Assembly: GCF_030406325.1 (NCBI RefSeq)
Contig: NZ_JAUEQY010000003.1
Location: 62,001-126,000 of the forward strand
Direction: 5' to 3'
Source: Actinomadura sp. DC4
GTDB taxonomy: Bacteria > Actinomycetota > Actinomycetes > Streptosporangiales > Streptosporangiaceae
Length of the DNA stretch: 64,000 nucleotides
Shown here piece after piece: positions 9,559 to 30,127 of the stretch. The notes below the pieces were generated by a model. It was not told where the DNA came from and searched no databases. It saw nothing but the letters and a program-made list of their open reading frames with translations. Within the stretch, counting starts at the first letter, position 1; each line of letters opens with the position of its first letter. The translations under genes and the position numbers were made by a program.

Positions 9559-10794
9559 CTACCGGCCACTCGAAGACAGCCGCCGCCGCGAGTACGCCAG
9601 GAAGCCGAGGATCAGCAGCGTCACGCACACCGGCACCACGGCCGCGACCACCGGGCCGGCCCAGCGGTCCAGCGAGACGAACCAGGCCGCGCACAGCGCC
9701 AGGTAGCCGCCGCCCAGGACGATCCCGGCCACCGTGCCGTACACGGAGTAGATCCAGCGGTCGGCGCGTCCGTACGCCAGCCGGCGCGGGTCGCGCCGGA
9801 GGACCAGGCCCGCGTACCGGACCGTCTCGGTGCGCAGCTCGGCGGCGCGCAGCGCGTGGGCGAGCATGTGGTAGCCGTCGAGCTGCAGCAGCGGGACGAG
9901 GTTGAGCCACGCGGTCACGCTGCCGAACACCAGCAGCCCGGCGGCGAGTCCCCGGCTCACGGGGTGCCCGGCCGACAGCGCCCACCACGCCAGCACCGGC
10001 AGCAGCGCGAGCAGGCTCACGAACACGCCCGCGAACGCGGTGGCCACCCGCGCGTGGCGCCGGTGGAAGAGCACGACGTCGTCGGTCTTGCAGTACGGCG
10101 TGAACATCGGGAACCGCCACATGATCCCGATCTCGGGCACCGTTCCGCCGAAGTGCTTGCAGGTCACGCCGTGCGCGGCCTCGTGCAGCGCGGTGATGGC
10201 CCACAGGCAGGCCAGCCCGGCCGGGACGGACAGCCACAGGCCCGCTCCCCCGCGCGCGTCGGCGGACAGCGCGGGCAGGTGGGCGGCGACGAAGACCTCC
10301 AGCGCGACCACCGCGAGGAGCGCCGGGACCACGAACCACGCGCTGTACGCCCAGCGCAGCCGCCGGGCCGCCGCGGCGCACCACGCGTCCGGGTGGAACA
10401 GCGCCCGGCGCCGCCGCATCGGCGAGCGGTCCGCGCGGCTACGTTCGGCGTGCGCGTCGGCGAGGCGGGCCAGCGCCGCCGGGTCCGCGGTGCCGGCCAG
10501 CAGCTGGCGGCCGCCCAGCATGGTGAAGATCTGCGTCCAGTGCGACGCGGCGAGGCGGCGGCCGAAGGCCGCGAGGTACTCGTCGGCGACCTCCGCGAGG
10601 GTGTGGGAGCCGTCGAGCCGGGACATGATGAAGTGCTCGCGTGGCCCGACCCGGTAGAACCATCCCGTACGCGGGTCCTTGACGTGGTGCACGACCGTGC
10701 CGCCCGAGCGCAGGCCGGGCCCGAGCACGACGTCCGCGCGCAGCGCCGGCCGGGCGGCCAGCGCCGCCTCGCTCATCTCCGCCGGTGCGGTCAC
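9559..10794 (-). CDS. M50 (site-2-protease-like) metallopeptidase with an N-terminal PqqD/RRE-like domain
   Basis: 411 residues. The zinc motif HEAAH is at about 204-208 inside a membrane helix, and the second M50 motif LDGYHM is at about 305-310. About six hydrophobic segments make it an integral membrane peptidase. Residues about 38-100 (WFYRVGPREHFIMSRLDGSHTLAEVADEY...) resemble a PqqD-like winged helix, the fold used to grip RiPP leaders. This layout recalls YydH-type peptidases of RiPP clusters. It is the last gene of the RiPP operon and overlaps the small LanB gene by 4 nt. No other protease is in the cluster, so it is the best candidate for leader removal, perhaps coupled to export. 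Confidence 0.87.
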   Translation of the reverse strand: MTAPAEMSEAALAARPALRADVVLGPGLRSGGTVVHHVKDPRTGWFYRVGPREHFIMSRLDGSHTLAEVADEYLAAFGRRLAASHWTQIFTMLGGRQLLAGTADPAALARLADAHAERSRADRSPMRRRRALFHPDAWCAAAARRLRWAYSAWFVVPALLAVVALEVFVAAHLPALSADARGGAGLWLSVPAGLACLWAITALHEAAHGVTCKHFGGTVPEIGIMWRFPMFTPYCKTDDVVLFHRRHARVATAFAGVFVSLLALLPVLAWWALSAGHPVSRGLAAGLLVFGSVTAWLNLVPLLQLDGYHMLAHALRAAELRTETVRYAGLVLRRDPRRLAYGRADRWIYSVYGTVAGIVLGGGYLALCAAWFVSLDRWAGPVVAAVVPVCVTLLILGFLAYSRRRLSSSGR

Positions 10795-11798
10795 GCGCTC
10801 ACCTGCCGCTCCTCGAGCCCGAGGACGGCGCGGCGGTTGACGTAGGCGAGGTAGATCTCGTCCAGGATGCTCGCGCCCAGGCGGTTCGCGGTCATGTGGA
10901 CGTAGGAGCTGAGCAGGATGGGCAGGGCCACGGCCGGGTCGGTGACCGGGCCGTTCCGGAAGCTCAGCTCCCCGGCGCGCGCCAGCGACGTGGCCCGGTC
11001 CCGCAGCAGCAGGCAGTGCTCGGCCCACTCGCGCTCGGCGCCGGCGGCCGAGGCGGGGTCGCGTACGGCGGCGCGGACGCGCAGCAGCCGTTCCTCCAGC
11101 CGGTCGCGCATCCGCTCGAAGCTGCGGTCGAAGGTCTCGTGCTGGTCGGTGCTCGGCTCCTGGTAGGAGGTCTCCCAGAAGATCCGGTAGTTCTCCAGGA
11201 AGGTCGCGACCGCGGCGTCGTCGCGCAGGAACGCGAAGCACAGCGCCATGTCGAGCTGCGCGGTCTGGCCGAGCAGCACCGTGCGCATGTGCATGTTGCC
11301 GGTCGCGAGCAGCCGCAGGACCAGGTCGCTGGAGCGCTCGAAGTGCCACTCCGACAGCGCCATGCCGGCCGGGCCGCCGTAGCGGTCCAGCTCCTGGCGG
11401 TAGGCGATCTCGTGCACGCTGTTGTTGGCCCGGTACGGCATCTCGCCGTCCTCGCCGTACTCGGCGTTCCACCGCTCCTCGCTGTACTCCGCGAGGTACA
11501 TCCGCTTGAACAGCTCGCCGCTGGAGTCGCGGTCCGTCTCGTACAGGGCGGGACGGCGCGCGAGCACCGCCTCCAGCGCCGCGAGGACCTCGGCGCGGAC
11601 CCGGGGCGCGTCCCCGGCACGGGACGGCAGCATCCGCAGCCGTACGTGCGGGCCCTCCAGCCAGTAGCGGATGAAGAACCACCGGTCGACCAGGCCCTCC
11701 TCACGCAGCCGGCGGACCACCGGTGTCACGCCCTCGACCAGGATGGGGTTGGAGTTGGCGGCGTAGAAGACGTGGAAACTCAGCCATTCCGGATTCAC
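10791..11798 (-). CDS. Thiopeptide-type small LanB protein (SpaB_C-like, elimination or cycloaddition)
   Basis: 335 residues matching the stand-alone C-terminal LanB domain of thiopeptide and goadsporin clusters: WLSFHVFYAANSNPILVEGV at the start, then WFFIRYWLEGPHVRLRML and a helical C-terminal half. In split LanBs this domain eliminates glutamate from glutamylated Ser/Thr to give dehydroamino acids; a paralogue makes the thiopeptide pyridine. Only one copy exists here, so I favour the elimination role. GTG 11798 overlaps the stop of the large LanB gene (GTGA), and the two are surely coexpressed. Confidence 0.87.
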   Translation of the reverse strand: MNPEWLSFHVFYAANSNPILVEGVTPVVRRLREEGLVDRWFFIRYWLEGPHVRLRMLPSRAGDAPRVRAEVLAALEAVLARRPALYETDRDSSGELFKRMYLAEYSEERWNAEYGEDGEMPYRANNSVHEIAYRQELDRYGGPAGMALSEWHFERSSDLVLRLLATGNMHMRTVLLGQTAQLDMALCFAFLRDDAAVATFLENYRIFWETSYQEPSTDQHETFDRSFERMRDRLEERLLRVRAAVRDPASAAGAEREWAEHCLLLRDRATSLARAGELSFRNGPVTDPAVALPILLSSYVHMTANRLGASILDEIYLAYVNRRAVLGLEERQVSA

Positions 11799-14497
11799 GG
11801 TGCCTCCGTCCGGACCCCGTCGATCTCGACCGTCAGCTCGGTGACGTAGCCGTGCCCGTCGCGGCTCACGCAGAGCTGCCCGGGGCCGGGCAGCATCTCG
11901 CTCATCACCAGGACGCCGGGGTTGTCGCGGACCATCGCGTCCACCAGCGTGAGGCACAGGTAGGAGTCGAAGTCGACGTAGAGCGGCTTGTACTCCCCCG
12001 ACGCGGGCGTCGTGAGGAAGACGCGGCGCGGCACTCCGTGTTCGCGCCGCCATCGCCGCCACTCCAGGAACCACGCGGCGCCGCCCTCGTCGGGCCGCCG
12101 CCGCGGCACACGGTCGGCGCGCACGCTCCACTGCTGCCGGGACAGGACCACCGAGCCGTACCGCACGCGCGGCAGCCGTACGACGTCCTCCTCCGGCTCG
12201 GGCACGCCGGTGCCGGACCACAGGTCCAGCTGGGCCATGCCGGTGTAGGAGAAGTTCAGCAGCACCTGCTGCACCTCGGGCAGCGCGCCCGGCAACAGGA
12301 AGCCGAGGTAGACCGGGATGACCTCCACGCCCAGCCGCTTGGAGCGCAGGATGAGCCGGTCGGTCGCGGCGTCCTCGCACACCGACAGGTCATCGACGCC
12401 GATCCGCGCCCCGGGCGGGCGGCTGCTGACCTCGCCGGGGCAGACGATCTCGTACTCGGTGACGGCGGGGTGCAGGTTGAGGTTGGTGGCGTCGTAGCCG
12501 CCGGTCAGCTCGGCGAAGACCGCGCCCGGCGGGCACGCCGACCGCAGCACCTCCCGGAGCCGCCCGGCGAGGTCCTCCCCGCCTTCGGCGAACAGGTGCG
12601 CGAAGCGGGAGAACAGCAGCGTCAGGCCGGAGTAGACGCGGTTCACCACGGCCGTCGGCCGCTCGCCGCCGGCGACCTGCAGGAAGTAGGAGCGCGGCTG
12701 CAGCGCACCCAGGTCGTCGGGCAGCGCGTCCGCGATGCGGCCGGGGAACCCGGCGTCCAGGACCAGCTCCTCCGCGTCGCCGGGCAGCGCGCGGTACGCC
12801 TGGGCGAGCCCGTCGGCGACGGCGCGGCGCGCGTCGTCCACCGCGGTCAGCTCCGGCTGCCGGAACCAGTTGTCGTGCGGGGTGTACCCGCCGCCGTCGG
12901 GGAACCGCCGGTGCCGCATCAGCCGCTGGTGGAAGTTGTCGAAGAAGTCACGGTGGAACTCATGGGCGAACGTCAGGAAGTCGTCGCACCGGCCGGTCTC
13001 GCCGTGCCGGATCCGGAAGTACCCCCGGGTGACCAGGCGGCGCAGCACGCTCGTGTCGAAGGCCGGCATCATCGCGCTCAGCCGCCGCAGGTCCGGCAGC
13101 AGCGCCTCGGCCCAGATCCCGGTGTCGGCCGCGGCGTCGGCGGACCGCGGCGCGGTGTCCTCGTACACGAGGGTGGCGGGCGCGGACGCCCCGGCCACGC
13201 CGAGGCCGGCCTGGGCGGCCACGACCTCCTCCCGTACGGCCCCGAGCAGGCGCCGCCGCTCCTCCAGCCCGGCGGTGCCGAAGCGTTCCACGGACGACGC
13301 CACGGCCGCCAGGCGGCCGGCCAGCGTCCGCGCCCACGGGCGGTCCAGCGCCAGCAGCCCGGCGCGGTAGGCGGCGAACGGGTCGGGGTCGTGGATGTCC
13401 AGCTTGAGGACGGGTGTCTCCAGCAGGCCGAGCCGCAGCAGGTGGCCGACGTAGGTCTCGACGTCGGCGCGGTCGCGCTCGACGAGCCCGCAGAGCCGGT
13501 CCACCAGGTCGCGCACGCGTACGGTGCCGTCGCCGGAGACCTCGGCGAGCACGTCGGTGAGCATCCGGCCGGACGGCAGGAAGAACAGCGTCTCGCGCAG
13601 CGGGTCGACCTTCGCCGCCGCCGAGTCCTCGCCGGCCACCCGCGACCGCCGGAGGTAACGCACGACGTCCTCGTGCTCCTGCCAGCCGCCGGTGGCGCGT
13701 ACGGGCAGGTCGGCGCGCAGGAGCGGCTCGGCGAGGATCGCCGCGGAGATCCGGTCGAGCACGGCCATGTTGAGCCGTACGGCGCTGCGCAGGCCCTCGC
13801 CGCCGAGGCGCACGGCCAGCGGCGCGCCCGCACCGGGCCGGAAGGTACCCACGCACACCGAGGTCAGGGTGCTGAACGGGCTCGTCTTGCAGGCCGTGCG
13901 CAGGAGGTACTCCAGCAGGGAGCGCTCCACCCGGCGGGCGCGCTTGCCGGTCTCGCCGAGGTAGCGGTCGGCGTAACGGTCCAGCGAGGGCGAGGAGAGC
14001 TGCAAGCCGAGCCGCAGGCGTGGCTCCCCGGCGAGCTCGTGCAGCGCGCCGCGCCGCGCGCGCAGCTCGGCGGCGAGCACGTCCTCGCCGGTCGCCCGCA
14101 GCTCCTTCAGCCGCCGGGCGCCGTCCACCAGGCGCAGCAACGTGGCCGCGTCGTCCGGGCCGAGTGCGGCGACGGCGGCCGCGACGGCCGGGCCCGCGCG
14201 TACGGGACGCAGGTTGAACACGTCGCGCCGCAGCCCGACGAGCAGCCGCCGTACGGTCTCGTCGGCGCAGCCGCCGACCGCCTCGGTGAGCGGGCCGGAC
14301 AGGCTCTCGCGCGCCGCGACGGCCACGTCCTCGGCGGCGAGGACGTCCTCCGCCCACGCGGCCGTCTCGGGGAAGACGAGGTCCGCCACGGTGTCGAAGG
14401 GCAGCCCGGCGATCCGCAGCATGAACGGCTCGGCGAGACGCCAGTCGTAGGCGGCCCCGGATCGCGTCGGCGGCGTTGCCGTTCCGGTCGGTGACAC
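11795..14497 (-). CDS. Large LanB dehydratase subunit (tRNA-dependent glutamylation domain)
   Basis: 900 residues of the lantibiotic dehydratase N-terminal type. Landmarks include the SSPSLDRYADRYLG region and LLEYLLRTACKTSPFSTLT, the conserved KTSPFST-type segment of the family, then HDNWFRQPELTAVDD. This subunit transfers glutamate from Glu-tRNA to Ser/Thr of the precursor. The elimination half is encoded separately next door, as in thiopeptide and goadsporin clusters. The GTG at 14497 is chosen because TAAGGAG stands at an ideal distance; the longer frame has an Arg/Pro-rich head unlike coding sequence. It is 26 bp from the SagB gene. Confidence 0.9.
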   Translation of the reverse strand: MSPTGTATPPTRSGAAYDWRLAEPFMLRIAGLPFDTVADLVFPETAAWAEDVLAAEDVAVAARESLSGPLTEAVGGCADETVRRLLVGLRRDVFNLRPVRAGPAVAAAVAALGPDDAATLLRLVDGARRLKELRATGEDVLAAELRARRGALHELAGEPRLRLGLQLSSPSLDRYADRYLGETGKRARRVERSLLEYLLRTACKTSPFSTLTSVCVGTFRPGAGAPLAVRLGGEGLRSAVRLNMAVLDRISAAILAEPLLRADLPVRATGGWQEHEDVVRYLRRSRVAGEDSAAAKVDPLRETLFFLPSGRMLTDVLAEVSGDGTVRVRDLVDRLCGLVERDRADVETYVGHLLRLGLLETPVLKLDIHDPDPFAAYRAGLLALDRPWARTLAGRLAAVASSVERFGTAGLEERRRLLGAVREEVVAAQAGLGVAGASAPATLVYEDTAPRSADAAADTGIWAEALLPDLRRLSAMMPAFDTSVLRRLVTRGYFRIRHGETGRCDDFLTFAHEFHRDFFDNFHQRLMRHRRFPDGGGYTPHDNWFRQPELTAVDDARRAVADGLAQAYRALPGDAEELVLDAGFPGRIADALPDDLGALQPRSYFLQVAGGERPTAVVNRVYSGLTLLFSRFAHLFAEGGEDLAGRLREVLRSACPPGAVFAELTGGYDATNLNLHPAVTEYEIVCPGEVSSRPPGARIGVDDLSVCEDAATDRLILRSKRLGVEVIPVYLGFLLPGALPEVQQVLLNFSYTGMAQLDLWSGTGVPEPEEDVVRLPRVRYGSVVLSRQQWSVRADRVPRRRPDEGGAAWFLEWRRWRREHGVPRRVFLTTPASGEYKPLYVDFDSYLCLTLVDAMVRDNPGVLVMSEMLPGPGQLCVSRDGHGYVTELTVEIDGVRTEAP

Positions 14498-14523: not shown

Positions 14524-16134
14524 TCAGACCAGCCGGTAGTCGAAGTCGGCGGGGTCGGTTCGCTCGTGGCCGAGCAGGAGGAACAGGAAGGTGCGCTCGT
14601 CGGTACGGTCCAGGCCGACGCTCTCGTCGATGGCGATGTTGTCGAAGCCCAGGACCGCGCCGCATCCGACGCCCGCCGCGCAGGCCGCGACGTACGCGGT
14701 CTGGGCGACCGCGCCGACCTCGGAGTTCAGCACCCGGTAGCCCCGGCCGCCGTACAGCCGCAGGCCGGAGTCGAGGTTGGCCGCGATGGCCACCACCGCG
14801 GACACCTGGTCGAGGTTGTAGTTGGTCAGGTAGTACGCCTTCTGCAGGAACGTCCCGACCTCACGCTCCTCGATCGTCCGCAGCCGGTGCCCGCCCGTCT
14901 CGTACGCGTAGGTGCCGGGGGCGAGCCCGTCGACCCGGTTGGCCAGGACGTACAGGCGGGTCAGCGGGGCGTCGGCGCACTTGACGTCGGCGGAGTACCG
15001 CTGCGCGGACGACGCGCCGGCCAGGACGGTCCCGAGCTCCTCCAGGCTCAGCGCCGGCCGCGCGGTGAAGGCGCCGAAGCTGGACCGGCGGCGGCGCAGG
15101 ACGCCGCCCAGGTCGCCGTCGCCGGGTGCCGGGGGCGGCAGCCGCAGGTGCGTGCCGCCGGAGAGCGGCGCGGGCACGACCGCGCTGCCCGCCGCGGCGG
15201 CCGGGCGGGGGCGTACCTGTCCGGCGCTGAGCAGCGTGGCCAGGTGCGCCCGCTCGACCTGCTCGAAGCGCAGGATCTCGGCGGAGCGCTCGAAGAAGGG
15301 CCGTCCGGCCGGCCGTCCCACGCCGGCGGGCCGGGCCGGCCCACCGCCGTTCCACGGCAGCGGCACGACGGCGAGGACGCTCTCGTCCAGGGTCCTCAGG
15401 CCGAGCAGCTCGTTGAGCGGCTCGTCGGCGAACCACAGCGCGCGGTGCAACGGGCGGCCCAGGCCGCGGGCGACCAGCTCCCACGAGCCGAGCATCGCGC
15501 CCGCGTCCTGGGTCACGACGTGGTAGCAGAAGCTGTTGTACTTGTAGGAGTTCTTCCAGAAGCGCACCGAGACCAGCAGAAACTGGTCGGTGCCCGGGTC
15601 CTCGCCGAGCGCCTCGCGGACCCGGCCCGTCACGTCGCCGGTCAGCAGCCGCTCCAGCCCGTGGTGCGCGGTCGAGTAGTGGTAGACGCCCGGCGTCAGC
15701 GGCCCGGAGCCGCCGCTGACCCAGTAGGTCTCCAGCGGGTACATCCCGCCGCCGGAGGCGGTGGCGCGGCCCCACAGCGCGTCCTGGTAGTTGACCCGCG
15801 TGTCGATGTCCTGGTTCCAGCCGATGCGCAGCCGGCGGTCCAGCAGGCCGTACGACAGCCGCAGCAGCGCGGACACCGAGTCGAGGGTCCATGAGGCTCT
15901 CCCGGTGGCGTGGCCGCCGAGCGCGGAGGACACCGGGCCCAGCTCCGGCAGGCCCACCGGCAGCGGCAGCCGGGGCACGCCCAGGTAGGTCTTGTGCTTG
16001 GAGGGCTGGTCCCGCCAGTTCGGCTGGAAGTTCAGCGGCTCCATCGGCACGCGGCCGCGATAGAAGACCGTCTCGGCGTAGTCGCGGATCGTGCGGACCC
16101 GCTCCTCCAGCATCGTCTCCGCCTCCGTGATCAT
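14524..16134 (-). CDS. SagB-type azoline dehydrogenase with two nitroreductase-fold domains
   Basis: 536 residues, FMN-dependent oxidoreductase that converts thiazolines and oxazolines to thiazoles and oxazoles. The N-terminal half (SGGGMYPLETYWVSGG, LTPGVYHYSTAHHGLE, VSVRFWKNSYKY) and the C-terminal half (RRRSSFGAFTARPALSLEELG, RLYVLANRVDGLAPGTYAYE, FLQKAYYLTNYN) each have the SagB fold, so it is a duplicated protein. It starts at ATG 16134, overlapping the YcaO stop by 4 nt. Its presence predicts azoles, not only azolines, in the product. Confidence 0.9.
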   Translation of the reverse strand: MITEAETMLEERVRTIRDYAETVFYRGRVPMEPLNFQPNWRDQPSKHKTYLGVPRLPLPVGLPELGPVSSALGGHATGRASWTLDSVSALLRLSYGLLDRRLRIGWNQDIDTRVNYQDALWGRATASGGGMYPLETYWVSGGSGPLTPGVYHYSTAHHGLERLLTGDVTGRVREALGEDPGTDQFLLVSVRFWKNSYKYNSFCYHVVTQDAGAMLGSWELVARGLGRPLHRALWFADEPLNELLGLRTLDESVLAVVPLPWNGGGPARPAGVGRPAGRPFFERSAEILRFEQVERAHLATLLSAGQVRPRPAAAAGSAVVPAPLSGGTHLRLPPPAPGDGDLGGVLRRRRSSFGAFTARPALSLEELGTVLAGASSAQRYSADVKCADAPLTRLYVLANRVDGLAPGTYAYETGGHRLRTIEEREVGTFLQKAYYLTNYNLDQVSAVVAIAANLDSGLRLYGGRGYRVLNSEVGAVAQTAYVAACAAGVGCGAVLGFDNIAIDESVGLDRTDERTFLFLLLGHERTDPADFDYRLV

Positions 16135-18074
16135 GGGAACGGGTGGGGTCGCGGGTGGAGCCCGGCCGGGCCGTAGCCCGACCCCGGCGGCTGGACCGAG
16201 GACAGCCGGCCGGCGAGGAAGTCGTGCAGGCGCGGATGGTGCAGCACGCGCTGCCGCTGCCAGCCGAAGTCGATCGGGATCAGGCCGGGCGCGATCACGC
16301 TGACCGTGTGGATGCCGACCGCCTCCTGCTCGGGGCACGTCTGGTCGACGACGATCACGTCGCCGCCGAGCGCGGTGAACCGCCCGGTCAGGAAGCGCAC
16401 GTCGTCGGACAGGTCGAGCCCGGCCGGCCGTTCGTCCAGCCAGCCCGCGTACAGCTCCTCCATCGGGCGCGGCGGCGGCCCGTCGAACAGGAAGCCGGCG
16501 TGCCGCGCCATCTCCGGCAGGCCGTACAGACCGGAGTGGTGGGCCAGCTCGTGCACCAGGTCGTAGTCGTCCACCATCGCGGTGAGCTGGGGCCGGCGCG
16601 CGATGACGCGCTCGTCGAAGCCGGGCACGTACGAGGCCGTCTCCGACATGGCCGAGCGCACCGCGTCCTCGGGGTCGAAGCCGGCCCCGGCGCCGAAGCA
16701 GAGCGTGCCCGGCCTGCCGTCGCGGCGCTCGGCCACCGCCATCACGGCGGGCACCGGCAGGTCGGCGCGCATGTCGAACAGCCGCATGCCGTACCCGAGG
16801 CGGGCGATCCGGTCCCGCATGAACCGCACGCGCGGGTCGCGGCAGCTCTCCAGGTCGATCTCCGGCAGGCGCGCGGCGGAGTACCAGCTGAGCAGGAACG
16901 CGTCGCGTTCGAGCAGTTCGAGCATGGCGTGCAGCACGGCCTCCTCGACGCAGCTCCCGCTGGCGCAGCCGTTCGAGCACTCCTGCACGAACTTCTTGTA
17001 CGGCCGCCGGTCGAGGTAGAAGACGAGCTGCTCGGGCACCAGGACCGGCCGTTCGTCGCGGAGGGAGTACCCCCACGTCCAGTGCATCGGGGTGTCCGGG
17101 TCGAACGGCGCGTAGAACTCGGCGTGGTGGGCGTAGAACTCGGGGGCGTACTCCCCGCAGGCGCGCGGGTCGAGCGCGTCCGGGGCGAGGTCGGCGTAGG
17201 TGCCGAAGACGTCGGCGGACCGGGCGCGCGGGAACTGCCCGGCGTAGCGTTCGAGCCCTTCGAGCAGGCCGTACCTCTCGCTGTGCCACAGGCTCTGCGC
17301 CTGCCCGCTCCACCACATCTCGTGGTAGTCGTACCGGCTGCGCACGCGGAAGAAGCCGCTCACCGGGGCGGTCGCGGTGCACTGGTAGGCGGGCAGCAGC
17401 GCGCCGGTCACGGCGCCGCAGACCGGGTTCGCGTACCCGGCGACGGGCAGGTCGAGCTCCTCGACCGACCGCAGCCTGTACTCCGTGGCCGACGGCTTGG
17501 GCCGCGGCTCCAGCCGTACGACGGCCGCCTCGGCGGTGTCGGGCCGGGGCGCGGCGCACCGCGGGCACTCGGAGTCGGCGACGAGCTCTTGCCGGGTGAC
17601 GGTCAGGTCGGCCGGCCGCAGCTCGCGGATCTCCGCGACCGATCCTCCCGTACGCGGGCGATCGGCCATGGCCTCGACGAGCAGGCGGATCGCCTCCAGG
17701 GCGAACGGGCTCAGCCGCGGGTCGACGCCGGCGACGTACGCGTCGAGCCCCTGGTCGATGGCGCCGCGCTCCTCCAGGGGGCGCACGCTCACGAAGCGGC
17801 GCTGCAGGCAGACGACGCAGGGGCGGCCGGCTCCGGTGAAGAGCGGCCCGACGACGACGGTCCCGGTGTAGAGCCGGACCGGCAGGACCGCGCCGGCCTC
17901 GGCGCCGCTCCAGGTCTCGGTGCGGCCGGGCAGCCCGAGCGTGTCGACGTCGACGTACAGCGGGCCGCCGTCCGGCTCGACCGGAAGGCCGCACGCGGCC
18001 AGGTAATCGCGCACCGCCCGGACCGCGGGGTCGACGGCCGCCGGCGCCGTGACGATGCTCGTCGCGCCTGTCAT
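16131..18074 (-). CDS. TOMM cyclodehydratase: E1-like partner domain fused to YcaO
   Basis: 647 residues. The N-terminal ~200 residues are an E1/ThiF-like domain with two CxxC pairs (C86/C89 and C170/C173) that would bind zinc. The rest is a YcaO domain with the family's Glu-rich ATP/Mg segments, e.g. YGLLEGLERYAG and VEEAVLHAMLELLERDA, and a C-terminus ending PHPFP, the Pro-rich tail of azoline-forming YcaOs. It phosphorylates backbone amides using ATP to cyclise Cys, Ser or Thr side chains. ATG 18074 has GGAGGG just upstream. A strong hairpin separates it from the precursor gene. Confidence 0.92.
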   Translation of the reverse strand: MTGATSIVTAPAAVDPAVRAVRDYLAACGLPVEPDGGPLYVDVDTLGLPGRTETWSGAEAGAVLPVRLYTGTVVVGPLFTGAGRPCVVCLQRRFVSVRPLEERGAIDQGLDAYVAGVDPRLSPFALEAIRLLVEAMADRPRTGGSVAEIRELRPADLTVTRQELVADSECPRCAAPRPDTAEAAVVRLEPRPKPSATEYRLRSVEELDLPVAGYANPVCGAVTGALLPAYQCTATAPVSGFFRVRSRYDYHEMWWSGQAQSLWHSERYGLLEGLERYAGQFPRARSADVFGTYADLAPDALDPRACGEYAPEFYAHHAEFYAPFDPDTPMHWTWGYSLRDERPVLVPEQLVFYLDRRPYKKFVQECSNGCASGSCVEEAVLHAMLELLERDAFLLSWYSAARLPEIDLESCRDPRVRFMRDRIARLGYGMRLFDMRADLPVPAVMAVAERRDGRPGTLCFGAGAGFDPEDAVRSAMSETASYVPGFDERVIARRPQLTAMVDDYDLVHELAHHSGLYGLPEMARHAGFLFDGPPPRPMEELYAGWLDERPAGLDLSDDVRFLTGRFTALGGDVIVVDQTCPEQEAVGIHTVSVIAPGLIPIDFGWQRQRVLHHPRLHDFLAGRLSSVQPPGSGYGPAGLHPRPHPFP

Positions 18075-18117
18075 TCGCCCTCCGATCGGCGGTGTCCGAT
18101 GGGCCGGACCATCGTGG

Positions 18118-18149
18118 CCGTCCGTCCCCGCTGACGGGCGGACGGACGG
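18118..18149 (-). promoter_or_regulatory. Hairpin between precursor and YcaO genes, candidate attenuator
   Basis: CCGTCCGTCC (18118-18127) pairs perfectly with GGACGGACGG (18140-18149), a 10-bp GC stem with a 12-nt loop. It lies in the 138-bp gap after the precursor stop. A partial terminator here would give more precursor than enzyme mRNA, a common need in RiPP operons; this role is inferred. Confidence 0.6.
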
Positions 18150-18212
18150 GCACGACGGTGTACCGTTTGCAGTGCTGCACGGAGCGGCCCACGCCCCGTG
18201 CCGCCCAGCGCC

Positions 18213-18383
18213 TTAGCTGGTGCTGGTGCTGCAGGAGCAGCAGCTGCTCGTGCTGCAGGAGCAGCAGCTGGAGCACGAGCAGCTGGAGCTGGACGCGGCC
18301 AGTTCCAGAGCCGGGTCGACGAGCTCCTCGATCTCGAACGTCATGCTCTCCAGCGCGGCGAGCTCGTTCTTGACAGTGGACAT
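18213..18383 (-). CDS. RiPP precursor peptide, 56 aa, with an all-Ser/Cys/Thr core
   Basis: The leader (residues 1-30) is acidic and helical, with LESMTFEIEELVDPALELA, similar in style to thiazolylpeptide precursors, and ends in Ala-Ala. Residues 31-56 contain 15 Ser, 8 Cys and 3 Thr and nothing else, so every core residue is a possible site for cyclodehydration or dehydration. The motif SSCCSCST occurs twice in tandem (residues 38-45 and 46-53). ATG 18383 has a perfect GGGAGG ribosome site six bases upstream; an earlier in-frame ATG at 18401 lacks one. Cleavage is likely near residues 29-31. The gene sits between the ThiF-like and YcaO genes and is flanked by two hairpins. Confidence 0.92.
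   Translation of the reverse strand: MSTVKNELAALESMTFEIEELVDPALELAASSSSCSCSSCCSCSTSSCCSCSTSTS
18225..18272 (-). repeat. 24-bp tandem repeat in the precursor core
   Basis: Two adjacent 24-bp units (18225-18248 and 18249-18272) are identical at 21 of 24 positions and encode the duplicated octapeptide SSCCSCST. One Ser is TCC in one copy and AGC in the other, so the repeat is not brand new. Confidence 0.85.
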
Positions 18384-18417
18384 GTTTGCCTCCCTTCTCA
18401 TCCATCGCCTTGACCTC

Positions 18418-18453: not shown

Positions 18454-20616
18454 TCAGCCCGGATCGTCGGGCCGCATGGACAGCAGCACGATCCCGGTAC
18501 TGATCGCCGGAACCGCGCGCAGGTCAGCGGTGGTGGTGTCCACGAGATAGGCGTCCAGGCCGTGGGCGGCGAGCGCCGCGACCATCGGCCCGGGGCCGGT
18601 CGGTGTTGCTTCCTCTTGCCGATCGGGTGATTCGTCTCCGCAGGCGCCCTCGGTCAGCGCCGTACGGGGGTCGAAGTCGGCGGGCAGGGTGCCGCCGAGG
18701 TCGGCGGGCACGCCTTCGGCCGCCATCGTCTGCGCCTGCCCGAGCACGTCGCGCAGCGCGGCGCGCAACGCCTCGCCCGGTGACGCTCCCGCGCCGACCG
18801 CCCAGACCGGGTCCTCCTCCAGCACGGCCAGCACCGCGTACGCGGGACGCGCGCCGGGCAGGGCGTAGACGCGGACGCGACGGCCGAGGTGTCCGAGACT
18901 GACCTGGGCGAACCTCCCCTCTTCGTCACGCTCGACCGTTTCGGGCGGCAGCTCATGCGCCGAGGCGGTGCCGCGCACCGCGGCGAGCAGGCCGCGGTAG
19001 GCGAGCGCGTCCGCGAGGCCCGCGGCGAGCACCTCCGTGCGCGACCCGCCGGCGGCGCTCCCGGCCGCGACGCGCTCGAACCGGGCGTCGCGGTTGACCG
19101 AGGTGAGCGGGTACGCCGCGGCCTGCGGCACCAGCACGCGCTCGCCGGTGGCCACGGCGACCGCGGGCACGTACGGGCGCGGCGCGTCACCGGCCGGGGC
19201 GACACCGCTCCAGGTCAGCAGGCCGGCGTCGGGGATGACGCGGTGGCCCTCGGCGGTCAGCCGGGCCGGGGTGCCGGCCACGACGTCGGACCGGTTCGCG
19301 AAGGTGCCAGCGTACCAGGCCAGCGCCGACCGCACGGCCGCGACCCGGGCCTGCAGGAACGTCTCGGGGTGGTAGGCGGTGATCGTACGGGGGCCGCGGG
19401 CCACCTCGCCCGAGCCGGCCACCCGGACCCGGCCGATCTTGAGCGGGATCTGCTCCAGCGCCTCGTCGGCCCAGGCGGACAGCACGCCGATCCGCGGTGA
19501 GATCAGCGGCCGCACGCGCTCGAAGGTCTCCTCGTCGGTGGCGTCCTCCGGCTCGGCGGCCGGCGGAAGCGCGAGGTCGCGGCACAGGGGGCAGGCGGGG
19601 TGGGGCAGGAGCGGCTCGCGTACGGACTCCAGCGTCGTGGCGTCCTGCACGATGACGTGCCGCTCGTCGGCGGCCGTGAACTGCCCGGAGAAGAGGCGGA
19701 ACGTCTCGAGCGCGGCGGCGTTGCCGATCATCGCGGGCACCGTGCCGGTGGCCGGTGTGGACCGCTCCACGGCCTCGCCGAGCGCGAGCTCGCGCCAGAG
19801 GTCCGCGGCGAGCCCCGCGTCGCCGTTCGCGGCCAGCCGGAGCTGGGCGCAGAGCCAGCAGGGTCCGGTGGTCGTGCCGGTCAGCGGGCCGAGTACGACG
19901 CGCTCGCCGGTCACCACGACCGGCAGCAGGCGCGCGTGCGACCCGGCGGCGTCGCGCAGCCGCCGGCTGACCGCGAGGAGTTCGCCCAGCCCGTCGCCCT
20001 CGGCCGCGAAGATCACCACGTCGTAGTCCGGCCAGGGCACGTCGGCGGCGCGCGCGGTGAGGGTGACCGGCAGGCCCTCGGCCGCGTCCTCCAGTGCGCC
20101 GGTCACGTCGGTGCCGTCGCGCGGCGTGACGTAGTCGACCTCGGCCATGCCGTTGCGGACCAGGCCCTGGACGGCGGCGGTCAACACCGGCGCCGAGCCC
20201 GCGACGAGCGCCCGCGCGGAGCGGAACCGGCCGAACCGGACCGCGGGCGAGTCACCGCCGGCGGCGAAGTGCTCGATGAGGTTGATCTGCGGCCGGAACC
20301 GCGTCAGGACCGCCTCCGGCAGCCCCGCGTCGGCGGCGGGCGGCACGTCGCGCACGAAGCCCTGCGCCAGGAGTGCGCCGGTCAGGCGCAGCACGGTCTG
20401 CCGCTGGCCGTCGCTCAGGCCGTCGCAGAGCTCACCGACGCTGACCTCGCCGTTCATGCGCGGGCCCAGAATCGAGATCCACTGGTAGGCGAGCTTGCCC
20501 TTCAGCACGCAGGCGGTCTCGGAATGCCGGAGATAAACGCCCGTCTCGACGCGCAGAAACACCGCGTCATTGCGCAGCCGCGGCCTGATCTCCAGCAGCT
20601 CGGAGTCCGTCGCCAT
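18454..20616 (-). CDS. ThiF-like cyclodehydratase partner (F protein) with RRE and a pseudo-YcaO domain
   Basis: 720 residues, first gene of the RiPP operon. Residues about 9-90 (RPRLRNDAVFLRVETGVYLR...) look like the winged-helix leader-binding RRE of ocin-ThiF-like proteins. The middle is an E1/ThiF-like domain with zinc CxxC pairs C253/C256 and C342/C345. From about residue 370 (LISPRIGVLSAW) to the end the layout copies a YcaO domain, but the ATP/Mg glutamates are gone: QARVAAVRSALAWYAG stands where active YcaOs read like EGLERYAG, and the Pro-rich tail is absent. It probably captures the leader and activates the fused YcaO, as F proteins do. Confidence 0.85.
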   Translation of the reverse strand: MATDSELLEIRPRLRNDAVFLRVETGVYLRHSETACVLKGKLAYQWISILGPRMNGEVSVGELCDGLSDGQRQTVLRLTGALLAQGFVRDVPPAADAGLPEAVLTRFRPQINLIEHFAAGGDSPAVRFGRFRSARALVAGSAPVLTAAVQGLVRNGMAEVDYVTPRDGTDVTGALEDAAEGLPVTLTARAADVPWPDYDVVIFAAEGDGLGELLAVSRRLRDAAGSHARLLPVVVTGERVVLGPLTGTTTGPCWLCAQLRLAANGDAGLAADLWRELALGEAVERSTPATGTVPAMIGNAAALETFRLFSGQFTAADERHVIVQDATTLESVREPLLPHPACPLCRDLALPPAAEPEDATDEETFERVRPLISPRIGVLSAWADEALEQIPLKIGRVRVAGSGEVARGPRTITAYHPETFLQARVAAVRSALAWYAGTFANRSDVVAGTPARLTAEGHRVIPDAGLLTWSGVAPAGDAPRPYVPAVAVATGERVLVPQAAAYPLTSVNRDARFERVAAGSAAGGSRTEVLAAGLADALAYRGLLAAVRGTASAHELPPETVERDEEGRFAQVSLGHLGRRVRVYALPGARPAYAVLAVLEEDPVWAVGAGASPGEALRAALRDVLGQAQTMAAEGVPADLGGTLPADFDPRTALTEGACGDESPDRQEEATPTGPGPMVAALAAHGLDAYLVDTTTADLRAVPAISTGIVLLSMRPDDPG

Positions 20617-20834: not shown

Positions 20835-21131
20835 CCAATTTTCATCTATTCCCTACCACTTAAGCATGATTTACGCTCGGTGATCGGCACTTGCACCATG
20901 CACGGTCTGAACTGGGGAGACACCGTCACCGGCGGCACGGCGGCAGGGCACACCTCGTTGACGCTCCGTATTCTTCGGGCCGACCGCTGACGACGATTAC
21001 TTCCATCATGCTCGAACACCGTTGTATTCTGCCCTTGACATTTCCGGTGACGGCCGTTCTCCCGGCAGGCCTTCGGTTCCCGCCGAGTGAGGGGAAGAAG
21101 TCACGCTGCGAATTGGGAGACCCCTACTCGG

Positions 21132-21602
21132 ATGACGGATGGTCAGAGATCTACCGGCGACACCGCGATGCTGAGCGTCGCACTCGACGAGGCGCGCGCC
21201 GGATACGCCGAGGGCGGCGTCCCGGTCGGCGCCGCCCTGTTCTCCGCCGACGGCACGCTCCTCGGGCGGGGGCGCAACCGCAGAGTGCAGGACGGCGATC
21301 CCTCCACGCACGGCGAGACCGCGGCCTTCCGCGCCGCGGGCCGCCGCCCCTCCTACCGCGGCACGACCATGACGACGACGCTCTCCCCCTGCTGGTACTG
21401 CAGCGGGCTGATCCTGCAGTTCGGCATCTCCCGGGTGGTCGTCGGCGAGGCCCGTACGTTCGAGGGCCGGCACGAGTGGCTGGCCGGGCACGGCGTCGAG
21501 GTCGTCATCCTCGACAACGCCGAGTGCGCCGACCTGATGACGGCCTTCGTCCGCGAGCAGCCCCGGCTCTGGCAGGAGGACATCGGCGCGGTGAGCGGAT
21601 GA
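21132..21602 (+). CDS. Cytosine/nucleoside deaminase family protein
   Basis: 156 residues with both zinc motifs of the cytidine deaminase-like fold: HGETAAF (His and the proton-shuttle Glu) and PCWYCSG (PCxxC). Size and motif spacing fit the yeast-type cytosine deaminase and tRNA-adenosine-deaminase relatives, acting on a free base or nucleoside rather than on tRNA. ATG 21132 is used; GTG 21087 is the longest alternative, and M14 (21171) is also possible. The stop overlaps the oxygenase start by 4 nt. Confidence 0.85.
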   Translation: MTDGQRSTGDTAMLSVALDEARAGYAEGGVPVGAALFSADGTLLGRGRNRRVQDGDPSTHGETAAFRAAGRRPSYRGTTMTTTLSPCWYCSGLILQFGISRVVVGEARTFEGRHEWLAGHGVEVVILDNAECADLMTAFVREQPRLWQEDIGAVSG

Positions 21603-22558
21603 GCGCCGTCCCGGTCATCGACCTGCGGGCCTGGTTCGACGGCGACCGGGCCGACCGCGAGCGGGTGGCGGCACGGGTCGACGCCGCGCTGTCCGAGATC
21701 GGCTTCCTCGTGGTCACCGGGCACGGCGTGCCGGCCGGGCCCCGCGAGCGGATCCGGGAGGCGGCCGGCCGGTTCTTCGCCCTGCCGGAGGAGGTCAAGG
21801 CGCGATACGCCGCGACGGTCGGCGAGCGCGGATGGCTGCCACCGGGAGTCGAGGCCAACGGCTACGCCGAGGGCACGCCGACGCCGCCCGACCTGAAGGA
21901 GACGTTCGCGGCCGGCGCCGACCGGCCCACCGGCGACGCGGCCATCGACGCGGAGTGGTTCCAGCCCAACGTGTGGCCCGCCGAGGAGCCCGAGCTGGAG
22001 CCGCTCGTGGTCGACCACCTGGCCCGGATGCGCGCGCTCGCCGGCGAGCTGCTCGTGATCTGCGCCGCCGCCCTCGGCCTCGCGCCCGACTTCTTCACCT
22101 CGCGGGCCGGCCACCCGTCCTACACGCTCAACATCAACCGCTATCCGCCGCTGTCCCGCCTCGGCCCGCCCGAGCCCGGCCAGTTCCGGATCGGCCCGCA
22201 CACCGACTTCGGCACCGTGACCGTCCTCGACCGGCAGGACGGCGTCGGCGGCCTGCAGGTCCACACCCCGGAGGGCGGGTGGGCGAACGCCCCGTTCGTC
22301 GAGGACTCCTTCACCATCAACACGGGTGACCTGCTGGCCCGCTGGACCGGCGACCGCTGGCGCTCGGGCCGCCACCGGGTGCTGCCGCCCGACCCGAGCG
22401 CCCCTGACGAGGAGCTCCTCTCCCTCGTCTACTTCTACGAGTGCGACCCCGGCGCGGTGATCGAGTCGCTCGGGCCGCCCGTCGGCCGGGTGGCCCACCC
22501 GCCGGTACGCGCGTCCGAGTTCCTGCTCGAACGGCTCGACGCCATCACCCTGCGCTGA
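21599..22558 (+). CDS. 2OG-Fe(II) oxygenase, isopenicillin N synthase family
   Basis: 319 residues with the DIOX_N start (VPVIDLRAWF, SEIGFLVVTGHGVP) and a C-terminal jelly-roll. The iron ligands are His and Asp in GPHTDFGTVTVL and His in SGRHRVLPP; the 2-oxoglutarate-binding Arg follows within that last region, though the usual RxS is altered. It catalyses a hydroxylation, desaturation or ring closure on an unknown small molecule. It is translationally coupled to the deaminase (ATGA). As a RiPP neighbour it could be a tailoring enzyme, but nothing proves this. Confidence 0.87.
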   Translation: MSAVPVIDLRAWFDGDRADRERVAARVDAALSEIGFLVVTGHGVPAGPRERIREAAGRFFALPEEVKARYAATVGERGWLPPGVEANGYAEGTPTPPDLKETFAAGADRPTGDAAIDAEWFQPNVWPAEEPELEPLVVDHLARMRALAGELLVICAAALGLAPDFFTSRAGHPSYTLNINRYPPLSRLGPPEPGQFRIGPHTDFGTVTVLDRQDGVGGLQVHTPEGGWANAPFVEDSFTINTGDLLARWTGDRWRSGRHRVLPPDPSAPDEELLSLVYFYECDPGAVIESLGPPVGRVAHPPVRASEFLLERLDAITLR

Positions 22559-22651
22559 GTCCTCCCCGCGTACGGATTTAGGAACCGGGCAGGAACGCAT
22601 CGCGTCTCAGGCACGTAGGGGGTGTTCGCCGACCTTTTTCCCGTGAGGACC

Positions 22652-24241
22652 ATGGAGACTCTCTGCCAGAACGACCTCGTCCGGAAGGCGACCGGTGTCA
22701 CGCTGATCGTGGCGTCACTGGTCTACGCGGCCTGGCTCGCCGCGGACCTGCGATCCGACGACCTCTGGCTCTCCCTTCCCTTCCTGCTGGCGAACTCGTT
22801 CCTGATCTGCCTGCTGTTCGTCACGGTCCACAACAACTGGCGCCGCCTCCCGCTCGCGGTCGCCGCGCCCGCGCCGTTCGCCGAGCCGCGGGTGGCCGTC
22901 CTCGTCCCGACCCTCAACGAGCCGCCGGGAATGGTGCGCCGGACGCTGGAGAGCGTCCTCGCCCAGGACTGGCCCCACGACCGGCTCGTCGTGATCGTGG
23001 GCGACGACGGGCACCGCCCGGCCGTACGGGCCATGGTCGAGGACCTCCAGCGGAGTCACCCGGCGGTCCTCCTGCACTACCACCTGCCGCCGCGCCGGCA
23101 CACGCCCGCGCGGCGCGGTGACGCCAAGGACGGCAACCTCAACTCCATGCTCGGCCTCGTCGCCCGTGAGGCGATCGCCTTCGTCGAGACCCGTGACGCC
23201 GACGACCTCGTCGGCGACCCGCGCTTCCTGCGCCACACGGTCGGCCATCTCGTGCGCCATCCCGACGTGGCGTACGTGCAGACGGTCAAGGACTGCCTGG
23301 TCAGCCCCGGCGACCCGTTCGGCAACCGGCGGCGGTTCTTCTACCGGGGCATCATGCTCTCGCGCGCCGCGGCCGGCGCCGCCTTCCCCTGCGGCAGCGG
23401 GCTCGTGTGGCGGCGGGCGGACCTGGAGGCGATCGGCGGGTTCCCCACGTGGAACCTCGTCGAGGACCTCTACTCCGGATACCTCGCGCTGCAGCACGGC
23501 ATGCGCGGCGCCTACCTGCCGATCGACGGCGCGGTCGGCCAGGTCGCGCCCGAGGACCTCCCCAACGTGTACAAGCAGCTCGGCACCTGGGCGATGGACA
23601 CCATGCGGATCTTCTTCTGGAGGTCGCCGCTGACCACGCGGGGGCTGACGTTCCGGCAGCGGCTGCAGTTCCTGGAGGTCGGGCTCTTCTACCTGTCCAG
23701 CATCCCGACGCTGGTGCTGATCCTTACCCCCGCGTGCTGCCTGCTGTTCGACGTCCGGCTGTTCCAGGACCACGTCGTCGCGCACGTCGTCTACTCCACC
23801 GGCTACGTCCTGCTGCTCGCCGCGTACATGTTCGTCCTCGGCAACGGCACGTCGTGGCGGGAGGTGCTGCGCGCCAAGCAGATGTGGGTGGGCCTGATGT
23901 TCGTCCACAGCGGCGCCTGCCTGCGGGCGCTCTGGTACGGGCCGCGCCGCAAACCGGCGTACCGCGTGACGCGCAAGGTCCAGCGGGCCGGCCTCTACCT
24001 CAAGGAGGTCGCGCCGCACCTCGCGCTGGTCGCGCTCTTCGCCGCCGCGATCGTGCGCCACCTCCTGCTGCCGGCCTCCGGGCGCGCGCTCGACCGGTTC
24101 GACCTGGGGTCGGTCTTCTGGGTGGTCGACTACGGCATCCTGCTGTTCGCCTTCATCCGGCGCAGCTGGTTCGGACTGGGCCGTACGGGGCAGGCGGAGC
24201 CGGAGATGGAGACGATCATGGAAAACGCGGCGAAGGGTTAG
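22652..24241 (+). CDS. Membrane glycosyltransferase family 2 (cellulose-synthase-like)
   Basis: About 529 residues. Two N-terminal membrane segments are followed by a GT-A domain: VLVPTLNEPPGMVRRTLESV, VIVGDDGH, the DxD-like TRDADDLVG, and EDLYSGYLAL with the catalytic Asp. KQLGTWAMDT stands where processive enzymes have QxxRW. Four or more membrane segments close the protein. It should polymerise or transfer sugars from a nucleotide donor across the membrane. ATG 22652 has GAGG nearby; GTG 22622 is an alternative. Only 2 bp separate it from the kinase gene. Confidence 0.87.
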   Translation: METLCQNDLVRKATGVTLIVASLVYAAWLAADLRSDDLWLSLPFLLANSFLICLLFVTVHNNWRRLPLAVAAPAPFAEPRVAVLVPTLNEPPGMVRRTLESVLAQDWPHDRLVVIVGDDGHRPAVRAMVEDLQRSHPAVLLHYHLPPRRHTPARRGDAKDGNLNSMLGLVAREAIAFVETRDADDLVGDPRFLRHTVGHLVRHPDVAYVQTVKDCLVSPGDPFGNRRRFFYRGIMLSRAAAGAAFPCGSGLVWRRADLEAIGGFPTWNLVEDLYSGYLALQHGMRGAYLPIDGAVGQVAPEDLPNVYKQLGTWAMDTMRIFFWRSPLTTRGLTFRQRLQFLEVGLFYLSSIPTLVLILTPACCLLFDVRLFQDHVVAHVVYSTGYVLLLAAYMFVLGNGTSWREVLRAKQMWVGLMFVHSGACLRALWYGPRRKPAYRVTRKVQRAGLYLKEVAPHLALVALFAAAIVRHLLLPASGRALDRFDLGSVFWVVDYGILLFAFIRRSWFGLGRTGQAEPEMETIMENAAKG

Positions 24242-29134: not shown

Positions 29135-29392
29135 GCGTCCTCCAAGGGATCGGCACGCGCGGCGAGGTGCGCATGTCCGGCACATTCTGAATAGCCGTTC
29201 AGGTGGCGTACAGCCTTTCCTTCTGGCCGGTTCGGGCCAGGTCGCAGCGGTCGGCGGAAAGGCGAATTCCGGTCAGTGCGGGGTGGGGTAAGCCGTACTC
29301 GCGGTCCTCGTGGCGGCACGATCGATTCGCCGGCCGATGAAGATCAGGATGAGGTCCTGTCAATTTCCTCGCATCGAGAAAGGGACAGAATC

Positions 29393-30127
29393 GTGGATCA
29401 TACGATCGAGGTACGCGGGCTGACGAAGCACTACCGGTCCACGCTCGCGGTCGACGCGCTCTCCTTCGACGTCGCTCCCGGGGCCGTGACCGGCTTTCTC
29501 GGCCCGAACGGCGCGGGCAAGTCGACCGCCATGCGGATGATCCTGGGCCTGGACGCCCCGGACGCCGGGCACGCGCGGATCGGCGGGCGCCGTTATCGCG
29601 AGCTGCGCCGGCCGCTGCGCGAGGTCGGCGCCCTCCTGGAGGCCAAGGCGTTCCATCCCGGCCGGTCCGCCGCCGCCCACCTGACCGCGCTCGCCGCCGC
29701 GAACGACATCCCGCGCTCGCGGGTGGCCGAGGTGCTGGAGCTGGTCGGACTGGAGGGGGCCGCACGGCGGCGGGCCGGGAGGTTCTCGCTCGGCATGGCG
29801 CAGCGGCTGGGGCTGGCCGCCGCGCTGATCGGCGACCCCGGCGTCCTCGTCCTCGACGAGCCGGTCAACGGCCTGGACCCGGAGGGCATCCACTGGCTCC
29901 GGTCGCTGCTCCGCTCGCTGGCGGCCGAGGGCCGCACGGTCTTCGTCTCCAGCCACCTGATCGGCGAGATGGCCCTGACCGCCGACCGCCTGGTGGTGAT
30001 CGGCGCGGGCCGGCTGGTGGCCGACACCTCGGTCGCCGAACTCTCCGCGCGGTACGGCTCGCTCGAGACCGCGTTCCTGTCCCTGACGTCGGCCGGCGTC
30101 GAATACCGCGGAAAGGCCGCCTCATGA
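29393..30127 (+). CDS. ABC transporter ATP-binding protein
   Basis: 244 residues with Walker A GPNGAGKST, a Q-loop region, signature RFSLGMAQRLGLA and Walker B VLVLDEPVNGLDPEG, followed by the H-loop SSHLIGEM. It belongs to the drug/bacitracin-type exporters whose permease is a separate ABC-2 protein. GTG 29393 has AAAGGGA upstream. It overlaps the permease start by 4 nt. Confidence 0.93.
   Translation: MDHTIEVRGLTKHYRSTLAVDALSFDVAPGAVTGFLGPNGAGKSTAMRMILGLDAPDAGHARIGGRRYRELRRPLREVGALLEAKAFHPGRSAAAHLTALAAANDIPRSRVAEVLELVGLEGAARRRAGRFSLGMAQRLGLAAALIGDPGVLVLDEPVNGLDPEGIHWLRSLLRSLAAEGRTVFVSSHLIGEMALTADRLVVIGAGRLVADTSVAELSARYGSLETAFLSLTSAGVEYRGKAAS

Follow-up and report, generated by a model that had tools for sequence, protein, structure and literature searches.

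The operon and its neighbourhood

The window analysed here, a stretch of 64,000 nucleotides from Actinomadura sp. DC4 (contig NZ_JAUEQY010000003.1, positions 62,001 to 126,000), contains an operon of seven genes, all on the minus strand, which encode in order an F protein, a precursor peptide, a YcaO protein, a double SagB protein, a LanB glutamylation protein, a LanB elimination-type protein and an M50 protease (Table 1). The YcaO protein exceeded the cut-off of TIGR03604, and both it and the F protein exceeded that of TIGR03882; together with the adjacent precursor gene, this is the gene set of an azol(in)e-containing RiPP (TOMM/LAP). The operon also combines a split LanB with azole enzymes and has no pyridine synthase, the combination by which a goadsporin-type LAP is recognized.

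Table 1. Features of the operon, with positions in the window.
Feature	Position	Strand	Evidence
F protein (leader-binding, ThiF-like), YcaO-like C-terminal region	18454..20616	minus	TIGR03882 68.2 bits (cut-off 36.9)
Ribosome-binding site GGGAGG	18389..18394	minus	sequence
Precursor peptide gene, 56 aa	18213..18383	minus	ORF, ribosome-binding site, homologues at same spot in related operons
Leader, 30 residues, TFEIEEL motif common to relatives	18294..18383	minus	leader identity
Core, 26 residues, S/C/T only, with an 8-residue unit repeated in tandem (core positions 8-23)	18216..18293	minus	same sequence in L088; at least 20/26 in 20 distinct cores
Strong stem-loop in the gap from the precursor to the YcaO gene	18110..18157	minus	z-score -2.71 for 138-nt gap; 2/200 shuffles as stable
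YcaO cyclodehydratase, N-terminal E1-like/leader-binding-type region	16131..18074	minus	TIGR03604 299.6 bits (cut-off 219.25); TIGR03882 86.6; PF02624
SagB-type dehydrogenase, two nitroreductase-like domains	14524..16134	minus	TIGR03605 151.9 bits (cut-off 78.4), two stretches; PF00881 at 347-523
LanB glutamylation protein (TbtB/GodF-like), predicted start GTG 14497	11795..14497	minus	PF04738 154 bits; PDB 6ec7 E 8.8e-36
LanB elimination-type protein (TbtC/GodG-like), 335 aa	10791..11798	minus	PF14028 160.9 bits; NF045556 100 bits (cut-off 325)
Intramembrane M50-type protease, 405 aa, predicted start	9559..10776	minus	NF041824 118.5 bits over 23-392; HEAAH + LDG motifs

The F protein scored 99.6 bits against TIGR03693, the named F-protein model, which is below the cut-off of 561.9, and its residues 419-704 matched PF02624 with 43.9 bits. 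The YcaO protein ends in PHPFP; azoline-forming YcaO proteins carry a proline-rich motif at this end. The M50 protein has HEAAH and LDG motifs, which we take to be marks of an M50-type protease, and it matches the daptide protease model NF041824 over its full length with a score below the cut-off of 300. On this score it is a homologue of the daptide M50 leader protease and not a member of that family. Strong local hairpins like that between the precursor and YcaO genes occur at the same gap in all eight relatives that were folded (without shuffle control), and the structure possibly raises the level of precursor over enzyme mRNA.

We found no gene for transport or immunity within the operon, and the nearest ABC pair, an ATPase and a membrane protein, is at 29276-30858 (+). 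Of the 37 related loci compared, 20 have an ATPase like that of the window in the vicinity of the operon, ABC ATPases being common in general. Divergent from the operon are genes for a 2-oxoglutarate/Fe(II) oxygenase (20891-22558, +) and a family 2 glycosyltransferase (22622-24241, +); these two had no counterparts in the 37 related loci and are probably unrelated to it. A 917-aa protein with a NACHT domain (31077-33830, +) is possibly a defence or signalling protein. A PHROGs search of three neighbours gave zero matches. A piece of the F protein gene recurs elsewhere in the assembly (G000 contig C78, about 372713-372892, L033), where 187 bases are 92% identical to window positions 20061-20247; this reflects either a partial duplication or the assembly itself.

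The precursor gene

The precursor ORF runs from an ATG at 18383 to a stop codon at 18215-18213 and has 56 codons, with the ribosome-binding site of Table 1 upstream of its ATG. A second in-frame ATG, farther upstream at 18401, would yield 62 aa; we prefer the 56-aa start because a ribosome-binding site is present and the length agrees with the leaders of relatives. Residues 31-56 are SSSSCSCSSCCSCSTSSCCSCSTSTS, and our recount gave the same 15 Ser, 8 Cys and 3 Thr that had been reported in a sequence-only reading of this DNA. The range assigned to the core in that reading, 18213-18305, comprises the stop codon, the core itself and four leader residues. The frame and start, which it had named as points on which its interpretation could fail, are upheld by the ribosome-binding site, the leader length and the homologues. 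Core positions 8-15 and 16-23 are two copies of SSCCSCST.

A Pfam scan of the precursor gave zero matches. It scored 14.2 bits against TIGR03892 (cut-off 25) and 21 bits against NF033400 (cut-off 30), and thus lies near, and under, the thresholds of these models. The sequence-only reading had proposed to look for homologous cores by TIGR03892-like leader similarity, and the precursors collected here by leader type do include such cores. In leader type the peptide resembles the "thiazolylpeptide-type bacteriocin" precursors that TIGR03892/NF033400 describe (NCBI). Four of the eight relatives' precursors tested pass a curated cut-off of TIGR03892/NF033400, and for the precursor of L088 neither model gave a match up to E 0.1.

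The core DNA is a GC-rich near-repeat of AGC, TGC and TCC codons, as would be seen if a low-complexity stretch were translated by chance in one frame. We rejected such a repeat-driven artefact, to which we give next to no probability. It is in effect refuted by the homologues, in which the core protein is kept through synonymous codon change, and it does not account for the ribosome-binding site and operon position of the gene. In addition, the precursor core is the sole S/C/T-only run of at least 12 residues in the six frames of the window, whereas 60 copies of the window simulated with a third-order Markov model had longest runs of 6 to 11, and never above 11. The related loci amount to 2.14 Mb, some contigs being present twice, and 140 of their 142 S/C/T-only runs of at least 18 fall within listed precursors. 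We also discounted the plus-strand ORFs that cover the core as genes, given their overlap with the conserved ORF on the minus strand.

Relatives and distribution

Of 297 genomes of the same family, 27 (counting that of the window) had a YcaO match at E <= 1e-80, with one such match in the window's assembly. The F protein was found in one of eight genomes of the genus (its own) and, at E <= 1e-40, in 14 of 394 genomes of the class; a first F-protein scan for further relatives found none. With a YcaO alignment as query, a scan at E <= 1e-3 picked out 352 stretches that hold a relative, some of them possibly of thiopeptide type, and the best 80 of these gave 78 loci, which belong to Streptomyces, Actinacidiphila, Micromonospora, Saccharothrix, Kribbella, Actinomadura, Nocardiopsis, Jiangella and others, with two relatives in Ktedonobacteria (L125 and L127). 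Twelve loci of a second set of 37 related loci share sequence with the 78-locus set, which inflates combined locus counts and leaves distinct-peptide counts unaffected.

All six enzymes are encoded in 50 of the 78 loci (best 80 of 352 stretches), on one strand and in the order F, YcaO, SagB, LanB, LanB, M50. The other 28 are without at least one enzyme, mostly on short contigs or stretches, with genes either side of the stretch, or in a layout with two YcaO proteins. A precursor was recognized in 50 of the same 78 loci, with one to eight per locus, and lies between the F and YcaO genes in 33, while 16 of the 50 complete operons from these best 80 stretches had no precursor recognized by the filter. 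Leader searches of the 28 precursor-less loci turned up a single doubtful ORF each in L133 and L141. Streptomyces albidoflavus NRRL B-1271 has the operon (L150) on one contig and a YcaO gene with a precursor (L129) on another, so a precursor may lie elsewhere in the genome.

In the YcaO tree, from which row L102 was left out owing to an internal stop, the window groups with six Streptomycetaceae rows (support 100/96), whereas its genome is itself placed in the family of Acrocarpospora. This difference in placement hints at transfer.

Several loci differ in layout. At least eight different precursors are encoded in one operon of Acrocarpospora macrocephala (L103, 5509-9680, on the same contig as L047), and several of their cores are interrupted by Trp, Tyr, Met or Pro, whereas cores elsewhere are uniformly S/C/T. 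Eight loci (L128, L130, L136, L137, L143, L147, L111 and L117) have the two-YcaO layout, with a second YcaO and precursors apart from the F-YcaO-SagB-LanB-M50 operon; this second YcaO may make a different modification. Most loci among L090-L101 and L106 (Micromonospora) and L107-L109 (Kribbella and a Streptomyces-labelled record) have three precursor types side by side, ending in sequences like STSSCG, STGCGGG and SSSCSSTS, which may form a multi-component product.

Conservation of the core

We collected 120 distinct leader-type precursors, leaving out a peptide from thiopeptide locus L078 that had passed the leader filter. S/C/T-only runs of at least 20 residues occur in 77 of them and runs of at least 26 in 42, the longest being 34 (Candidatus Stackebrandtia, L139), and CSTSSCC is present in 72. 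The rarity that had been attributed to the core is not borne out by these numbers and we rejected the idea that it is unique, since the same or similar cores are found in relatives: judged by these peptides, the striking S/C/T-only core is typical of a whole family and not peculiar to this strain.

The window core is letter-identical in L088 from Streptomyces acidipaludis, whose YcaO is 60% identical to that of the window. Compared with L053, 25 of 26 core residues are the same, 12 of the 25 shared residues are encoded by other codons, with four AGY/TCN Ser switches, and the leader is identical at 15 of 30 positions; for L122 the core is also the same at 25 of 26, with 12 other codons, five AGY/TCN switches and a leader identity of 14/30. 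Leader identity ranges from 11 to 21 of 30 in relatives whose core is the same at 20 or more of 26 positions. Since the core is identical to that of L088 and is kept through synonymous codon changes relative to L053 while the leader diverges, it is, by sequence comparison, under purifying selection.

To describe the exchanges we used 20 distinct cores from 37 loci, some counted twice; these related sequences were preselected at a core identity of at least 20/26, so that the numbers are biased toward conservation while the contrast between kinds of position stays. Sixteen core positions are invariant. Of the 260 cells at the 13 inner Ser positions two differ, one being Ala and the other Gly, whereas the 11 Cys/Thr positions are changed in 24 of 220 cells, always to Cys, Thr or Ser, and position 21 is Cys in nine cores, Thr in nine and Ser in two. 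The exchange of Cys and Thr at fixed sites suggests that these are ring positions, at which ring type weighs more than side chain. Six core Ser stand immediately before Cys, and the fixed Ser may become dehydroalanine by analogy with carnazolamide. Overall the data suggest an ordered pattern of azoles at Cys and Thr with dehydroalanine or Ser between them.

Alternative modification schemes

We interpret the locus as a RiPP operon for a goadsporin-like linear azole/dehydroalanine peptide and not a thiopeptide, a reading that rests on the genes, their families and the conserved core and to which we assign a probability of roughly 0.78. Thiopeptides require a second, TbtD-type protein, and the operon has one elimination-type, PF14028-like protein. 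Against the pyridine synthase model NF045556 its score of 100 bits compares with 435-465 bits for three TbtD-type controls and 71-92 for four TbtC-type controls (L066, L077, L079 and L080), all from thiopeptide-type loci; the proteins of L053 and L060, further members of the family, scored 100 and 108. TIGR03891 gave 99.3 bits for the window protein and no match for the three TbtD-type controls, and by BLAST the window protein is nearer to the TbtC-type than to the TbtD-type proteins of L066, L077, L078 and L079. The whole assembly (98.3% complete, 101 contigs) had no NF045556 match over the cut-off, the best being 98.9 bits, and its sole other PF14028 match is inside a 1144-codon frame that is probably a fused LanB. 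By these measures the operon's only elimination-type protein resembles TbtC and not the pyridine synthase TbtD. A thiopeptide, for which this protein or an enzyme elsewhere would carry out the [4+2] cycloaddition to give a pyridine macrocycle, could still appeal to TbtD being its only solved-structure match (5wa3, E 4.5e-6), to an NF045556 score a little above both its TIGR03891 score and the TbtC-type controls, to core ends that look like thiopeptide CCSCS segments and to the homologous YcaO, LanB and F proteins in thiopeptide loci L066 and L077-L081. However, that NF045556 score is far under the cut-off and in line with the TbtC-type controls, and among 65 loci with any elimination-type match (from the best 80 of 352 stretches) only L117 has a TbtD-best region, which is beside a second YcaO. 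The conserved protease also speaks against a thiopeptide, as thiopeptide cyclisation is described as itself the leader removal step (PMC10885120). We consequently rejected this reading as improbable on the model scores, BLAST and the assembly-wide search.

The LanB proteins and a core of only Ser, Thr and Cys would also suit a class I lanthipeptide, or a hybrid, formed by addition of Cys thiols to dehydroalanines, but this is very improbable: the Pfam scan of the neighbours revealed no LanC cyclase, the split LanB is similar to enzymes of azole pathways, and YcaO, F protein and SagB occur in all 50 complete operons (best 80 of 352 stretches). A scheme with more to commend it, although we think it unlikely, is that only Cys is modified, to eight thiazoles, with most Ser and Thr unchanged and the invariance of Ser reflecting solubility, spacing or enzyme recognition. 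In carnazolamide azoles are reported to form from just 8 of 20 Ser/Thr/Cys (PMC10676384), and the Cys-to-Ser and Cys-to-Thr exchanges at core positions 7, 11, 13 and 21 could be tolerated ring losses. On the other hand, both LanB halves are kept in the 50 complete operons from the best 80 of 352 stretches, and the recurring exchange of Cys and Thr at position 21, which takes two nucleotides, would fit equivalent rings better than random loss.

Proposed pathway and product

For the goadsporin-like linear peptide that we favour, the F protein would hold the leader while YcaO forms azolines from Cys, probably from Thr and perhaps also from a few Ser; the double SagB protein would oxidise these azolines to azoles. 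The glutamylation protein would then transfer Glu from tRNA to Ser and Thr as an ester, and its removal by the elimination protein would leave dehydroalanine or dehydrobutyrine. We expect the order to be that of goadsporin, in which azoles are reported to form before the dehydroalanines that depend on them (PMC5303826), with leader removal last. The membrane M50 protease, whose daptide counterpart is described as removing the leader (PMC10036551), would cut near the Ala-Ala/Ser boundary and may aid product release.

The likely product has an azole at each of the eight Cys and probably at the three Thr, with dehydroalanine or unmodified Ser between; in carnazolamide, too, dehydroalanines are described as placed before azoles (PMC10676384). 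The unmodified free core has a computed mass of 2450.71 Da, from which each azole would take 20.03 and each dehydration 18.01. Eight thiazoles alone would thus give 2290.50, and dehydroalanine in addition at the six Ser that immediately precede Cys 2182.43; the predicted neutral mass is 2230.42 with 11 azoles, and down to 1960.26 if 15 dehydroalanines are added to these. A fixed, almost fully unsaturated product, in which all 11 Cys/Thr become rings (eight thiazoles, three methyloxazoles) and most of the 15 Ser become dehydroalanine, is a more tentative proposal that we consider rather doubtful. If true, it would be a ribosomal azole/dehydroalanine oligomer with hardly any ordinary residue left; residue identity would matter as ring type and not as side chain, and the exact order would be the same in different orders of Actinomycetota, with a relative also in Ktedonobacteria. 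The most probable role of the product, judged solely from goadsporin and at about even odds, is that of a developmental signal or an antibacterial agent directed at related actinobacteria.

The sequence-only reading had placed the precursor in a YcaO/F protein/SagB pathway, with which the operon neighbours and family models agree, and had allowed for dehydroamino acids from Ser and Thr, a possibility strengthened by the split LanB dehydratase also encoded here. Its near-continuous conjugated polyazole chain is conceivable but not indicated, in that the conservation points to an alternation of azole-type and Ser positions; such alternation leaves amide links and does not imply unbroken conjugation. 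Directly joined thiazoles would be expected only from the two CC pairs.

Comparison with known systems

Goadsporin (GodA, GodD-GodH) shares with the window operon the azole enzymes and split LanB, a leader of about 30 residues, a linear product (predicted for the window) and the lack of a pyridine synthase, as far as it is described in PMC5303826 and PMC4603692. It differs in that the window has a cyclodehydratase reliant on a separate F protein, a double dehydrogenase and a 26-residue core of S/C/T only. Leader removal, which is attributed to the ABC transporter-peptidase GodB in goadsporin, is probably by the M50 protease here; among the neighbouring ORFs scanned with Pfam there was neither a GodB-type ABC transporter-peptidase nor a GodH-type N-acetyltransferase. 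Thiopeptides of the thiomuracin/GE2270 type have in common with the window the F protein, YcaO, SagB and TbtB- and TbtC-like proteins, but the window has no pyridine synthase, its leader is without the GHGM..GAS end of L077-L081, and a protease is present.

The sequence-only reading had contrasted the core with known thiopeptides and goadsporin, a comparison that was too narrow, as long S/C/T runs are published for cytolysins, coryneazolisins and telomestatin (PMC4603692; PMC5469769). Cytolysins are reported to have a Gly followed by at least 10 heterocyclisable residues, and coryneazolisin cores 10 such residues, an Ile and then 5-7 more (PMC4603692). Coryneazolisins also resemble the window in pairing YcaO with a LanB-like dehydratase with no [4+2] enzyme; they are described with two D (YcaO) proteins in addition to the core Ile, whereas the window operon has one YcaO and an F protein (PMC4603692). 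The telomestatin precursor TlsC has a core of C, T and S only, CTTSSSSS, all of which is cyclised, but this is eight residues long and the product is macrocyclic, with no LanB reported in the description available (PMC5469769). Dehydrazoles, such as carnazolamide, likewise have dehydroalanines before azoles on a Ser/Thr/Cys-rich core, and differ in their reported DUF4135 LanM-type dehydratase and nitrile-hydratase-type leader (PMC10676384).

In the open-licence literature, judged mostly by title and abstract, we recognized no description of this operon family, also when looking for the core motif and for the names of the models. Individual parts are shared with goadsporin, thiopeptides, coryneazolisins, cytolysins and telomestatin. 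If our interpretation is right, these operons would represent a large, apparently undescribed group of actinobacterial RiPPs in which the whole core is substrate for ring formation or dehydration, and in which the order of Ser, Cys and Thr is nearly letter-for-letter the same between lineages whose enzymes are about 45-60% identical. The family would make it testable how YcaO and LanB share out Ser and Thr without other residues as guides, and the conserved order of the core would point to a conserved target or signal.
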